Positions 21,306-44,988 of a DNA stretch of 49,770 nt are shown here, piece after piece. The notes beneath the pieces were generated by a model. That model saw nothing but the letters and a program-made list of their open reading frames with translations, did not search any database and had not been told where the DNA came from. This DNA is from a virus. The DNA lies in IMG/VR virus record IMGVR_UViG_3300048996_000129, positions 1 to 49,770 of that record; one strand, written 5' to 3'. The translations under genes and the position numbers were made by a program. Position 1 is the stretch's first letter; each line of letters starts with the position of its first letter.

Positions 21306-22232
21306 ATGGGGATCAAGCGCGTAGTCGAGGTTCTGCTGCACGCCCCCGCCGACCTCACGCCGGCCGAGCGGATGGTGCTGATGGCTATCGGTGAGAACGT
21401 CCGAGACGGCGATCCGAAGCGGATGACCTGGCCGGATTTCAACATGCACGTGTTGGCTGAGCGGTCTGGTCTCACGGGTACCGGCACGTTGAAAGCGGCC
21501 CTGCAGCGGCTTGGTAAGCGCGGCCTCGAGGTGCGCGTCCCGATCATGTCTGACCGGAATGGCAGGCCGGTCTTCGCGCTCCCGGGCAAGCAGTGCCGCT
21601 ACCGCTTTCCGGTCCTGAACGAAGGGGAGAACACAGTCTCCCCTTCGGAGGCGGAAGGGGAGAACACAGTCTCTCCAGGGGAGAACACAGTCTCCCCAAT
21701 GGGGAGAACACAGTCCCGTCAGGAGAGAACAGGGTCTCCCCCTACCCCTCACCCCTCAACCCCTCCCCCCTCCAAGCGCGCCGAGGGGGACACCGCGGCG
21801 CCGTCGGAGCTCGCCGAAGAACGCCAGCAGCAAGACGAAGCTGTCGCCGAAGCGGTCCAGTTCCTCGAGAACCTGCCCGCCCCATGGACCGTCGGGCCAC
21901 GCACCGCCACCGCCATGGCCCATGACCTCGTCGCCATGACCGACCGGCAGGGCTGGGCCCTCGACGACGAACTGCTCGTCAGGCTCACCGACAAACCCGA
22001 AGGCGTCCGCAACCCCAGCCAGATCCTCCGCATCCGCATCGGCGACCTCCCCAAGCGCATCAAGAAGCCGAAGCCCCGCGCCTCCCCGCCGCTGCACCCC
22101 TGGTGCGGTGCATGCGCCGACGGAGCCAAAGCCGCCGAACGCGAAGGCCGACTCCGCCTCGTCTACGACGACGCCGGCCACGCCCACCCCTGCCCCAAGT
22201 GCCATCCGGACATGACCAGCAAAGCCGCCTGA
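21306..22232 (+). CDS. Winged-helix replication initiator-like protein (308 aa)
   Basis: ATG at 21306 with GGAGGGG at 21294-21300. Residues 1-105 form a winged-helix domain of the phage replisome-organiser type (LTPAERMVLMAIGENVRDGD, HVLAERSGLTGTGTLKAALQ, RLGKRGLEVR). Residues about 107-150 are a low-complexity linker built from GENTVSP units and proline runs. The C-terminal half is helical and ends in a zinc ribbon (PWCGACADGAK then PCPKCHPDM). It directly precedes dnaB. Like lambda O, the gene carries iteron-like repeats in its middle. Confidence 0.75.
   Translation: MGIKRVVEVLLHAPADLTPAERMVLMAIGENVRDGDPKRMTWPDFNMHVLAERSGLTGTGTLKAALQRLGKRGLEVRVPIMSDRNGRPVFALPGKQCRYRFPVLNEGENTVSPSEAEGENTVSPGENTVSPMGRTQSRQERTGSPPTPHPSTPPPSKRAEGDTAAPSELAEERQQQDEAVAEAVQFLENLPAPWTVGPRTATAMAHDLVAMTDRQGWALDDELLVRLTDKPEGVRNPSQILRIRIGDLPKRIKKPKPRASPPLHPWCGACADGAKAAEREGRLRLVYDDAGHAHPCPKCHPDMTSKAA
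21624..21741. repeat. Five phased palindromic iterons, candidate replication origin
   Basis: The unit is GGGGAGAACACAGTCTCCCC, a 7-bp inverted repeat around ACACAG. Copies start at 21624 and 21678 (perfect), 21657, 21701 and 21722 (degenerate right arm or spacer). Start-to-start spacing is 33, 21, 23 and 21 bp, close to whole helical turns. A C/T-only-rich stretch runs directly after (about 21739-21774). They lie inside the initiator-like gene upstream of dnaB, as the lambda origin lies inside O. Confidence 0.65.
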
Positions 22233-40624: not shown

Positions 40625-40640
40625 ACGAAGGGACTTGCAC

Positions 40641-41954
40641 GTGACTGCCACCTCCGTCGAGAAGGTCAACGGCGTCGCCGTGGCCTCACCCGAGCCCCGG
40701 TTCGACCCGGTGGCGCTGGCCGAGGCGGAGGCGATCCGTACCCGAGCCGCCGCCGAAGCCGAAGCACTGCGTACCAAAGCCGCGGGGGAGGCGAAGGCCG
40801 CTGAAATCCTCGCCGGCGAACAGGCCGAGAAAGACAGGCTCACCAACGAGCGGGCCCGACTCGCGCTGGAGCGCAAGCAGGTCGACCACGACGCCTACGT
40901 TGCGAAGAAGGCCGCCGAAACAGCCAAGTCACTTGCCGAGAAGCAGAAGGGCGAGAAGGCCGAAGCGGACCAAGCCGACCGCGAGGCGCAGCAGCTCGCC
41001 GAGCAGGCGCGCAGCGAACGGTTCTGGAAATGGGGTGCACGCGGCATCTACGCCGTCGGCCTGATCATCGCCGGGCCGGTGCAGTTCATGCACTTCTGGG
41101 ACCCGAAGCGGCCGTTCCTCGTCGCCGCCCCCGCTCTCCTCGAAGGGTTCGCGCTGGTCCTCGCATTCGGTGCCACATGGGCCGTCGCCCACCGGCGTGA
41201 CGTCGCCCCGTACCGGGTCGGCATCATGCTCGGCGCGATCATCGCCGCCGGGGTCAACCTGTACGGCGGCGTGTCCGACAAGGCGATCGGCTTCAATGCC
41301 GGCCTCATTGGGGCGATCGGCTCTATCGGCGGCCCGATCGTGCTGATGGCCTACGAGCACGGCATCGCGCAGAAAGCCGACGGTGAGCCCTCGCGGCGGG
41401 AGAAGAGGGCAGCCCGTAAGGCGGCCATGGTCAAGGCTGCCGCGGATGAGGAAGCGCGCATCGATAAGGGAGCCGTCGAGGCGAAGGCGGCAGCCGAGAA
41501 GAAGATCGCTGAAGCTGCAGCCGAGGCCGAGCAGAAGCGCCGCGACGACGACCGCCGCACATCCCACGAGGACGTGTGGGAAGTTGCCGACGCGATGCGA
41601 TCCGCGCGTGGCTCGCAGTACGTCACCGAGCAGATCTGGGCCGATGCCTGGTACCGCGTCACGGGCTGCCGGACTGTGGGGATTCGCCCAGAAGTTGAAG
41701 CGCAGTCACGCCTCGCAGAGGCTCGCATGCGGGCCGTCACCGACGCCCCCATTCTCGGCGACTTGTCGCTGATCAATTCCCAAAAGGTGCCTCGCCAGAA
41801 GAAGGATCCGAACACGCCTGACGGGCGGCGTCGGAACGGCGGCATTCCGCCCGTCCGTCGACCGGGCGACACGCAGCCGTACACGGCCGCCGCAAAGAAA
41901 CAGGCAGCCCTCGAGCAGGCCTCCGCGAACGCCAGCCAGAAGGAGCAGCGATGA
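40641..41954 (+). CDS. DUF2637 membrane protein with coiled coil (437 aa)
   Basis: GTG at 40641 (AAGGG at 40628-40632); TTG at 40635 is too close to the ribosome site. Residues 24-126 are a long Ala/Glu/Lys coiled coil. Four membrane spans lie at about 132-152, 159-184, 193-211 and 217-238, with the conserved-looking NLYGG between; this is the DUF2637 layout. The C-terminal cytoplasmic part is again charged helix. DUF2637 proteins accompany FtsK/TraB translocases in actinobacterial plasmids, and here the genes overlap by ATGA, so it is a likely membrane partner. Confidence 0.8.
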   Translation: MTATSVEKVNGVAVASPEPRFDPVALAEAEAIRTRAAAEAEALRTKAAGEAKAAEILAGEQAEKDRLTNERARLALERKQVDHDAYVAKKAAETAKSLAEKQKGEKAEADQADREAQQLAEQARSERFWKWGARGIYAVGLIIAGPVQFMHFWDPKRPFLVAAPALLEGFALVLAFGATWAVAHRRDVAPYRVGIMLGAIIAAGVNLYGGVSDKAIGFNAGLIGAIGSIGGPIVLMAYEHGIAQKADGEPSRREKRAARKAAMVKAAADEEARIDKGAVEAKAAAEKKIAEAAAEAEQKRRDDDRRTSHEDVWEVADAMRSARGSQYVTEQIWADAWYRVTGCRTVGIRPEVEAQSRLAEARMRAVTDAPILGDLSLINSQKVPRQKKDPNTPDGRRRNGGIPPVRRPGDTQPYTAAAKKQAALEQASANASQKEQR

Positions 41955-44014
41955 GTCTCGACACGAACCCGCAGCTGCCCGCCGACTGGGACACGTCGAA
42001 GGTCATCCCCGGTGAGCTCGTCGACCCCCAGGAGCCCGTCGACTTCGACGATGAGGACGATATTGCGCCGGGCATTGTCACGGTGTTCGAGCCGCGTACC
42101 CCCGTCATCCGCCAGGTCGGCTCGGCGGCGATGGTCGCCGCGTCGATCACCGGGCGGGCTGCCGGTCTGACGGCACGCGGCGGTTGGATCGGGTCCTGCT
42201 GGTTGGGGCGCGGACTTCGATCGGGCAGCCGCTGGTTTGCTCACGGGGTGCGGTCGGTGTCCTACCTCGGCTACCGGTACCTGCGCACGCACGACTACCA
42301 GGAGGCAGTCGGCGGGATCACCTCGTCCACGGACTGGCGACGCAACACCGAGGAACGCCACCGGCGTTGGAAGTGGCTGGGCATCGGCACCGGCGTTACG
42401 GCGCTCCTCAATGCCACCGGCTGGTGGGCGCTCGTGAAGTACGCGGAGATGACTGCCCTCGACTTCTCGTGGGCTATCCCGCCCGCCGCCACTGCCACGA
42501 TCCTCGGCTCAATCATCACGCTGTACGGCCGCTACCGGCTCGAGAATCCTGGCCTCGCACCCGAACAGATCGTCGCCGACGAGGACCAGGACGACGGCGA
42601 AGAGCCGTTCCCGCTGGCCTGGTGCACCTCGCCCGGCCAGGTCGCCGAGTGCGTGTCCCGTGCTTTCGCATACGAGGGGATCGGCACCCGCCGCGTCGAC
42701 ATCGTCGGCCACCGCCCGTGGGGCTGGGAGATCGACGTCGTCCTCAAGGGCTCCAAGGTCGGCAAGGTCAACGCTGTCGCCGACGATCTGGACGCCCACT
42801 TCAACATCAAGACCGGTGGGACGCTCATCGACCCCGACCCCCAGGAGGCCGCGCACCTGGTGCTGCGCCTGGTCACTGCGAACCCGTTCGAGGACATGGC
42901 CAAGCCGGCCGTGCACGCCCCGAACAGCCTCGACATTTCCGACCCGCACAACCTCGGCCGCCGCATGGATGGCCGCGTCTTCGACCTGGTTTTGGAGGGC
43001 CTGCGGATCCTGGCCATCGGCGTCTCCGGTGCGGCCAAGACCACCGGTGTTCTGCGCGACCTCGCCGAGATCATCACGGCCTGCCACAACGCGATCGCCC
43101 TCGACATGGACCCCGTCAAGGACGGGCTGCGCGAATTCGACGGGGCCATGGCCACCCCGCCAATCCGCGGCAACAGGGAATGCGAGAAGTGGCTCGGCTA
43201 TCTGGTGAAGATGGCGAAGGGCCGCAACTCCGTCCGGAACCGGCTCGGCATGGGCGACACCTGGGTGGCCACCGCAGACCATCCGGCGATCTTCCCGTTC
43301 GTGGATGAGTTCATCTTCCTCAGCCAGAAGGCCAAGGAACTGTTCATCGAACTCCTGCGGATCGGCAAACAGTCCGGGATCTACCCGATCGCCGCGGGCC
43401 AGGACGCCACCAGCGACAGCATGGGCGACGCGGTCGCCGACTCCTTCACCCTGCGGATCATGCTGGCAGCCCGGCACGCGGACATCCCGCTCGTCCTCGG
43501 CCAGGGGGCGATCGCCGCCGGATTCCGGCCCGACCGGCTGGTGCCCGCCCAGACGAAGGACATCCGCAATGACGCCGGCCAGTCGTACATCAAGGGCCCC
43601 GGCCTTGACCGGCCGCTGCTGTACGGGTGGAACGAGTACAGCAGCGACTCGATCAAGCGGGCTGTCGCGGAGCGCAAGTCGGCAGGACGCCCGTGGTTCG
43701 ACCGCGACACCCTGGCCGCGGCCGGTCTGCTCCACCTCGCCGACGGCGGATCGGGCGAGCGCGTGTCAGGGGACCGTCAGATCGCCTCGGATGCGGCGGC
43801 CGTGATGGCGAACGATGGAGTCACCCGCATTCGGACCGAGGCTCTCGCCGAGGCGCTCAGCGAGCACGACCCCGACGCCTATGGGGGCCTCACCGCGGCA
43901 GGGCTCCGCAAGCTCCTGAAGGACGCCGGTGCGGGATCCCCGGTGCCGATCGGGGACCTCGACGGGTTCATCAACCCTCGCGGCTACAAGATCGACGCTC
44001 TGACTGTTTTGTGA
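41951..44014 (+). CDS. FtsK/SpoIIIE-TraB-type DNA translocase (687 aa)
   Basis: Two membrane spans (about 145-165 and 174-193) precede a domain with AFAYEGIGTRRVDIVG and a motor domain. The Walker A region reads ILAIGVSGAAKTTGVLRDL (354-372), in which Ala362 replaces the usual Gly before K363. Walker B is AIFPFVDEFIFLS (446-458) with D452-E453, and the later GKQSGIYPIAAGQDATSD matches the FtsK family. No FtsK-gamma domain follows; the tail looks like a different winged-helix-like end (RIRTEALAEALSEHDPDAYG). It probably pumps double-stranded DNA, as TraB does in Streptomyces conjugation. Confidence 0.88.
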   Translation: MSLDTNPQLPADWDTSKVIPGELVDPQEPVDFDDEDDIAPGIVTVFEPRTPVIRQVGSAAMVAASITGRAAGLTARGGWIGSCWLGRGLRSGSRWFAHGVRSVSYLGYRYLRTHDYQEAVGGITSSTDWRRNTEERHRRWKWLGIGTGVTALLNATGWWALVKYAEMTALDFSWAIPPAATATILGSIITLYGRYRLENPGLAPEQIVADEDQDDGEEPFPLAWCTSPGQVAECVSRAFAYEGIGTRRVDIVGHRPWGWEIDVVLKGSKVGKVNAVADDLDAHFNIKTGGTLIDPDPQEAAHLVLRLVTANPFEDMAKPAVHAPNSLDISDPHNLGRRMDGRVFDLVLEGLRILAIGVSGAAKTTGVLRDLAEIITACHNAIALDMDPVKDGLREFDGAMATPPIRGNRECEKWLGYLVKMAKGRNSVRNRLGMGDTWVATADHPAIFPFVDEFIFLSQKAKELFIELLRIGKQSGIYPIAAGQDATSDSMGDAVADSFTLRIMLAARHADIPLVLGQGAIAAGFRPDRLVPAQTKDIRNDAGQSYIKGPGLDRPLLYGWNEYSSDSIKRAVAERKSAGRPWFDRDTLAAAGLLHLADGGSGERVSGDRQIASDAAAVMANDGVTRIRTEALAEALSEHDPDAYGGLTAAGLRKLLKDAGAGSPVPIGDLDGFINPRGYKIDALTVL

Positions 44015-44026
44015 TGGTTTGACTAC

Positions 44027-44177
44027 TGCTCGCGAGGTGCTCGCGGGTGCTCGACCGCAGGTCACAGCTGCTCGATCGGCTGCTCGGCCAACTGCTCGCC
44101 GAATCCGAGCACCACCGCGAGCAGCATTCCGAGCGGCTGTGACCTGCAACGGAGCAGTGCCGAGCAGCTCGCGAGCA
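44027..44177. repeat. 151-bp dyad-symmetric TGCTCG array, candidate transfer or segregation site
   Basis: Six TGCTCG units start at 44027, 44038, 44048, 44069, 44081 and 44093. The opposite arm carries CGAGCA units at 44106, 44118, 44161 and 44172, plus variants CGAGCG at 44130 and GGAGCA at 44151. The unit spacings mirror exactly: 11, 10, 21, 12, 12 against 12, 12, 21, 10, 11. A 12-bp block GCAGGTCACAGC (44057-44068) is perfectly repeated inverted at 44136-44147. The gap lacks a convincing gene and lies 13 bp after the translocase stop. Confidence 0.8.
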
Positions 44178-44223: not shown

Positions 44224-44988
44224 ATGCCCGCGAAGCGCAAGCCAGCCCGCCGAACCGCCCCCGCACGGCGCCGGAAACCCGTCTCGCGCGCCCGCCCCTC
44301 CAAGAGCGTCAAGGTCCCTCGCAGCGGCCCGATTCACGCCCGGATCGGCGCCTGGATGGCCCTTAAAGCAGCCGACCAGATCGTCACGCACAAGGACACC
44401 GTCCGCTCCCGTCAGGACGCCGCGATCCTCCGCGCCACCCACGAAGGTTGCACCAAGTGTGGCGGCAACGGGCAGATCTTCACCAAGGGCAAGGACGGAT
44501 CCTTCAGCGGCTCCAAACCGTGCCCGGCCAAGCCGACGAAGACGAAAGTCTCCAAGTGGGCGGTCTACAAGAACAGTCGCTTCGGCTCGGCCAAGAAGAC
44601 CGGCCTTGTCGGCTGCTCCTGCCCCTGCGGCTGGAAGCAGAAGCCGCGCTTCCGTGACGCCAAGGAAGCCACCAAAGTGCTCCGGACGCACGAGAAGGCC
44701 AAGCATGGCGGTAAGACCGTCGGCGGCGCCTGGTACGCGCAGACCGCCGCCGCTCCGACCACGGCGCCCGAGGCCAAGCCCGCCCTCTCCAAGGTCGTTA
44801 CCGACTCCGGCATGACCGACCAGCAGTGGATCAAGCAGAACAAGAAGATGAAACCGGGCACAGCCATCTCCAAGGGTCTGTGCTGGATGTGCGTCGGAAA
44901 CGGCAAGCTGCACGGCGGCCAACAGACCCTGACCGTCTGCCGCGAGTGCAAAGGAACCGGCAAGGCAGCGACGAAGGTTGCCGCCTAA
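44224..44988 (+). CDS. Basic protein with DnaJ-type zinc fingers (254 aa)
   Basis: ATG at 44224 with GAGGA upstream. The first ~35 residues are Lys/Arg-rich (KRKPARRTAPARRRKPVSRA). Two zinc-finger halves of CxxCxGxG type occur at about 76-100 (CTKCGGNGQIFTKG with KPCPAKP) and 220-248 (CWMCVGNGKLHGGQ, CRECKGTGKA). Between them is another Cys-rich region (LVGCSCPCGWKQ). A strongly basic tail plus fingers suggests DNA binding. It lies just downstream of the TGCTCG array. Confidence 0.72.
   Translation: MPAKRKPARRTAPARRRKPVSRARPSKSVKVPRSGPIHARIGAWMALKAADQIVTHKDTVRSRQDAAILRATHEGCTKCGGNGQIFTKGKDGSFSGSKPCPAKPTKTKVSKWAVYKNSRFGSAKKTGLVGCSCPCGWKQKPRFRDAKEATKVLRTHEKAKHGGKTVGGAWYAQTAAAPTTAPEAKPALSKVVTDSGMTDQQWIKQNKKMKPGTAISKGLCWMCVGNGKLHGGQQTLTVCRECKGTGKAATKVAA

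Follow-up and report, generated by a model that had tools for sequence, protein, structure and literature searches.

Directly behind the gene of an FtsK/SpoIIIE-like DNA translocase in a viral genome lies a large mirror-symmetric array of the short repeat TGCTCG, which raises the question of which protein reads the array and for what purpose. The initial annotation of this DNA drew a comparison with the clt/TRS repeats bound by TraB proteins of Streptomyces plasmids, proposed a transfer site, a centromere-like site or an origin, and named the translocase, a gamma-like protein and a basic zinc-finger protein as possible readers. The whole stretch of DNA analysed (the window) is 49,770 b long, constitutes an IMG/VR virus record and ends 5.6 kb past the array.

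The translocase locus and its surroundings

The features of the locus are, in order:

40635..41954, plus strand, membrane-type protein, overlapping the translocase start
41951..44014, plus strand, FtsK/SpoIIIE-like DNA translocase, 687 aa (PHROG 12531, E 7.5e-75)
43772..44011, plus strand, C-terminal winged-helix domain of the translocase, aa 608-687 (model pLDDT 84)
44027..44098, plus strand, left arm of the array: TGCTCG at 44027, 44038 and 44048, the GCAGGTCACAGC block, then TGCTCG at 44069, 44081 and 44093
44057..44068, plus strand, block GCAGGTCACAGC with core octamer GCAGGTCA, middle of the left arm
44106..44177, minus strand, right arm of the array: inverted units at 44106, 44118 and 44130 (CGAGCG), the block, then units at 44151 (GGAGCA), 44161 and 44172
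44136..44147, minus strand, mirror copy of the block, reading GCTGTGACCTGC on the plus strand, middle of the right arm
44224..44988, plus strand, basic zinc-finger-like protein, first gene past the array, conserved in phage relatives
46028..46441, plus strand, standalone FtsK_gamma-domain protein (PF09397, 43 bits, cut-off 30.6)

The translocase consists of an N-terminal part with long helices, an FtsK-fold motor (residues ~220-590) and a C-terminal winged helix (~608-687). The best Foldseek matches of the full-length model, the confidence of which was moderate (pLDDT 70), were the FtsK motor with dsDNA (6t8b/6t8o, E ~1e-12 (4e-12)). The C-terminal 92 residues were modelled as a winged helix with pLDDT 84; this domain had no Foldseek match in the PDB with E <0.001, winged-helix proteins ranking high, and is not PF09397, a Pfam search of the translocase giving no match. 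With the NCBIfam TraB model (NF041214) the protein scored 20.6 bits, the cut-off being 800, and judged by its sequence it is a remote TraB homologue and not a member of the TraB family proper. Its Walker A motif is GVSGAAKT (aa 357-364, 43019-43042), and that of the phage clade is GxSG[AS]AK[ST] rather than ...GK[ST]. Alanine replaces the glycine before the Walker A lysine at 32 loci, nearly all of them in the phage clade, and most motors of plasmids and integrated elements keep GK; the ATPase activity of the phage-clade motors is therefore assumed.

The membrane-type protein encoded upstream gave a BLASTP match (E 3e-6) to a DUF2637-annotated protein of plasmid pFP1 and is a remote counterpart of the plasmid DUF2637 protein found at the equivalent position. 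The window also encodes a tyrosine integrase, a RecE-like exonuclease, a DnaB helicase, a C5 methyltransferase and an anti-repressor; no terminase, portal or HK97 capsid gene was found within its limits. Just 5' of the DnaB gene, GGGGAGAACACAGTCTCCCC-like hairpin units are repeated at 21624-21740, forming the second-best dyad of the window, and these are possible replication iterons. The gamma-like protein of the initial annotation is a real FtsK_gamma protein, but its gene is present in only two of 25 virus records (the window and the record of L032), so it is not a general reader of the array. In Streptomyces/Kitasatospora plasmids (L078, L239, L241) the translocase itself carries the FtsK_gamma domain, as an N-terminal fusion.

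Architecture of the array

The array starts 12 bp past the stop codon of the translocase gene, and the next gene starts ~45 bp past its end. The description given in the initial annotation was borne out in each part, namely six TGCTCG units on one arm, six inverted partners of which four are exact and two are variants, a 12-bp block conserved in both arms, and an exact mirroring of the unit spacings (11, 10, 21, 12, 12 on the left and 12, 12, 21, 10, 11 on the right). On the right arm, CGAGCA is exact at 44106, 44118, 44161 and 44172, and CGAGCG and GGAGCA have one mismatch each. Each arm thus has the layout of three units, GCAGGTCACAGC and three units on a lattice of 10-12 bp, the 21-bp gap being a seventh lattice slot that is occupied by the block. 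GCAGGTCACAGC and its reverse complement each occur once in the window.

Around the dyad axis (44102) 61 of 95 positions are complementary, the mean over the window being 26.6 (sd 4.8) and the next best place having 47, which makes this the strongest dyad in the window. The ten exact units within 151 b are also its densest hexamer cluster, and in 60 first-order Markov shuffles of the whole window the count never rose above four. The array is real and non-random.

The lattice was measured in the 19 phage-type relatives belonging to the same kind as the window. The left units start 12, 23, 33, 54, 66 and 78 b past the stop codon, nearly constantly (with a +3 shift in two relatives), and the right units at ~93, 104, 116, 137, 147 and 158 b, so that adjacent units are 10, 11, 12 or 21 apart. 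Conservation of the unit spans ~6 bp. Complementarity across the axis was 94% for the units and 93% for the block, and 30%, near chance, for the spacer bases beside the units, a pattern expected of protein sites on the same side of the double helix rather than of an RNA stem.

Occurrence in related elements

Close relatives were drawn from IMG/VR, genome contigs, Streptomyces genomes, an order-level search and plasmids. Of the 393 Streptomyces genomes, 33 had a relative at E 1e-20; a class-level sample of 395 genomes yielded only three, one of these being G001. Arrays directly follow homologous translocase genes in phages and virus records, integrated elements and plasmids of Streptomyces, plasmid pFP1 carrying a form of the array. 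The unit varies between relatives (TGCTCG, TGCTCA, TGCTA, CCTCG, CGTCT, CGTCC, CCGGCG, TGACA, GTGACG, GGAAC and CTCTAC) and is nearly uniform inside each array, the spacing lattice being retained. Arrays were irregular, weak or absent in some relatives (e.g. L061, L067, L211, L224, L230, L243 and L244), and there was no array after the translocase gene of the lytic Stanwilliamsviridae (Evy, LilMartin), where the next gene starts 2 bp past the stop. The presence of arrays beside homologous translocases, on which the initial annotation had made its proposal depend, thus holds for most relatives but not for these lytic phages and a few others. With a mechanical 5-mer dyad score 57 of 98 loci were above the 99% null and 33 above the 99.9% null; this score is too noisy as an array detector in GC-rich DNA and misses irregular arrays, and therefore no claim is made of an array in all relatives.

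The gene after the array differs in most non-phage elements, and the array is retained where it does (L003, L050 and others). At least one phage structural marker (terminase, portal or capsid) was present in at least 16 of the 25 array-bearing virus records, and an integrase in 14 of them, indicating that many array carriers are temperate phages. Repeats of the GATCGG type, found after the translocase gene in L057, L063, L213 and L214, resemble another class of array. Four plasmids (L073, L074, L077 and L078) were MOBF-relaxase positive as typed by PLSDB and have an FtsK-type pump and array as well; two transfer systems may coexist in them.

A translocase residue tracks the array unit

Among 53 distinct C-termini of the window's type, arrays were classed by counting and residues read from the alignment, giving 49 clear cases with G, A or TA units. 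The window translocase has proline at position 666. Proline was found with GCTCG (n=12), threonine with GCTCA (n=33), glutamine with GCTA (n=3, in the separate lineages of L023, L058 and L231) and glycine with GCTCG (n=1, L055). The one other proline case, L025, has the unit CCTCG and asparagine in place of arginine at 677, and three threonine cases (L061, L224 and L230) have mixed or irregular arrays. Over the whole protein alignment column 666 was the only perfect predictor of the unit in the 49 cases, the next best column having an MI/H of 0.71, and no column of the motor body predicted the unit perfectly. Fisher's test of proline against G/A gave 3e-10, a value that ignores relatedness. 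G or A units occur in 16 phage relatives, and there the only columns to separate the two perfectly were 627, 666 and 667, all of them in the C-terminal domain.

When placed on the motor tree the unit labels required 12 changes, the mean for shuffled labels being 12.3, and shared motor ancestry is therefore not the explanation of the match between residue and unit. There were two independent G/A contrasts on supported branches, too few for significance in an independent-pairs test, and eight on the best tree; the main weight of the association therefore falls on the three recurrent glutamine cases, on L066 and on how the units are scattered inside the phage clade. In a second C-terminal type, with the units CGTCT, CGTCC and CCGGCG, one column (Q/R/Y) was a perfect three-state predictor, with few independent changes.

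Columns 627, 666, 667 and 677 lie on or beside three short beta strands (626-628, 665-666 and 677-680) of the modelled winged helix, and the unit-tracking columns are outside its helix 649-659. The translocase very probably reads the array through this C-terminal winged helix, because residue 666 tracks the unit while the motor body and the basic protein do not. The proposal that the translocase recognises the array much as TraB does clt/TRS is well supported, by the position of the arrays after homologous translocase genes and by the tracking residue. The basic zinc-finger protein, which had been suggested as another reader, is disfavoured, as none of its columns tracks the unit (best column 0.43, compared with 0.92 for the translocase) and this neighbour is replaced in most non-phage elements.

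The invariant octamer

GCAGGTCA or its complement was present in 74 of 98 distinct stretches after the translocase gene, ~0.06 being expected per 200 b, and this core was unchanged in relatives whose units differ. We rejected GCAGGTCA as a KOPS sequence of the host FtsK read by the gamma domain: in 800 kb of one Streptomyces genome (chromosome arms) it occurred 30 times on the leading and 25 times on the lagging strand, i.e. with no strand skew and a count as expected without over-representation, and among the 25 virus records only the two given above encode a gamma domain, although plasmid motors have one at the N-terminus. The most strand-skewed octamers in 800 kb (L247-L286; genome G358, contig C1, both arms) were CGGGGGAG (83 leading, 6 lagging) and GGGGGAGC (70 leading, 5 lagging), which are candidates for the orienting sequence of the host FtsK of Streptomyces.

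Alternative explanations

The array lies between two co-directional genes, and the translocase or a regulator could bind it as an operator, only for control of its own operon or of the basic-protein gene, in the manner of the tra genes of pIJ101, which are under KorA/KorB-type control (PMC4170104). We consider this unlikely: an operator would need far fewer than twelve phased sites in a 150-bp dyad, the array persists beside a different downstream gene, the unit tracks a translocase residue, and no sigma-70-like promoter was found in a scan that covers only some promoter types. Transcript folding, with a z of -9.4 relative to shuffles, would suit an RNA hairpin or attenuator; any dyad, however, would fold better than shuffles, the 10-12 bp rhythm is a signature of DNA, and there was no Rfam match or terminator-like site. 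Such a hairpin was rejected on the near-chance pairing of the spacers, set against that of units and block, and is barely conceivable. ParR/ParB and Rep sites typically consist of helically phased repeats. The phasing of the array would thus agree with a parS/parC-like centromere or with iterons, serving partition or initiation, but the unit follows the C-terminus of the translocase, many of the elements with an array are integrated in a chromosome and the repeat cluster 5' of the DnaB gene is a better iteron candidate, so that the centromere-like site or origin of the initial annotation is disfavoured and appears decidedly improbable.

Two further explanations concern a relaxase and the terminase. 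The octamer, invariant while the units change, could be the nick region of an oriT used by a relaxase, and four plasmid relatives are MOBF-typed by PLSDB. No TrwC relaxase domain, the one family searched for, was found in the window or the 24 related virus records (0 of 25), on which ground the oriT was rejected, and transfer of the FtsK/TraB type moves unprocessed dsDNA (PMC3583192); a nick site is thus very unlikely. A pac or cos site read by the terminase would suit the many carriers in which terminase, portal or capsid genes indicate a phage, but the array is found in plasmids too and adjoins the translocase rather than the terminase, which makes a packaging site highly improbable.

Comparison with known transfer systems

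In plasmid pWTY27, TraA binds and leaves footprints on the adjacent clt, which consists of direct and inverted repeats and is needed for transfer (PMC3583192). This clt resembles the array in its size (~175 bp), its location where an FtsK-type tra gene ends and its repeats in both orientations; it differs in having the units TGACACC/CCCGCCC in four copies with no regular 6+6 mirror. TraB of pSVH1, as described in papers that cite the work on it, is a hexamer (PMC3583192, PMC10191066, PMC4170104) whose C-terminal winged helix recognises 8-bp TRS repeats (PMC3583192, PMC10191066). It shares with the window translocase an FtsK-like dsDNA pump, short repeats and the C-terminal winged helix, but reads its TRS with helix alpha-3; the tracking residues of the window type are in the wing sheet, and its array has 6-bp units in a mirrored phased lattice and the extra invariant octamer. 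FtsK is loaded directionally by oriented KOPS sites (PMC2680272), likewise short and read by a winged helix behind the motor. KOPS are dispersed on the chromosome, however, whereas the sites of the window are gathered in one dyad beside the gene, and the C-terminal domain there has no PF09397 match, FtsK_gamma being encoded by a separate gene.

Streptomyces plasmids of the pFP1/pSLUN2 type have a homologous translocase (34% identity between the motors of the window and of the NBC_00285 plasmid), a DUF2637-type partner and, downstream, an array with a pair of GCAGGTCA copies. They differ in their CTCTAC units, in an FtsK_gamma-like domain at the N-terminus of the motor and in a PLSDB-typed MOBF relaxase. 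The Tra protein of pFP1 is listed among those of conjugative plasmids (PMC3218068). The lytic Stanwilliamsviridae phages Evy and LilMartin resemble the window in a homologous FtsK-like translocase (33%). Plasmid pZL12 is presumably a phage-plasmid. Its transfer genes are cited in PMC3583192.

The array probably works like clt/TRS and differs from them in unit length, mirrored lattice, additional octamer and position of the tracking residues. The dyad architecture, the correspondence of residue to unit, the presence in temperate phages and the invariant octamer are new. The initial observation is confirmed and is more general than first described.

Proposed role

The array is probably a clt-like cis-acting site for recognition by, and loading of, the adjacent FtsK/TraB-like dsDNA translocase. 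Binding by the C-terminal domain is strongly indicated by the tracking residue, and a role in DNA transfer is suggested by analogy. The C-terminal winged helix of each subunit would grip one 6-bp unit, the subunits, with units about one helical turn apart, would all sit on the same side of the double helix, and the six units of an arm would match a single hexamer. Two motors facing opposite ways, or else a symmetric assembly, would then be loaded on the dyad; the sequence itself does not show the polarity of loading, which we infer, like the oligomeric state and the role of the octamer, within this model. The likely task of the array would be to mark the element's own dsDNA for transfer between hyphae or compartments, a mark parallel to clt of the Streptomyces plasmids; the unit would serve each element as an address of its own.

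A wider reading, which we hold possible and propose only tentatively, is that temperate phages of Streptomyces carry a plasmid-style dsDNA transfer module, in which an FtsK/TraB-like pump is joined by a membrane partner and a dyad loading site of its own, and that cell-to-cell pumping thereby offers them a route of spread besides virions. The private and fast-changing address word would be read via the wing residue (P, T or Q at 666 for TGCTCG, TGCTCA or TGCTA), and the fixed GCAGGTCA beside it would be bound by a separate factor.

Very few examples show how pumps of the FtsK/TraB type select their own DNA and load on it. The family described here offers many natural lock-and-key pairs that are one residue and one base apart, and single swaps could probe how sites are recognised, with what polarity motors load and how exclusive each element is. 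For temperate phages, a dsDNA transfer module of the plasmid type would mean a second route of spread in mycelial bacteria.
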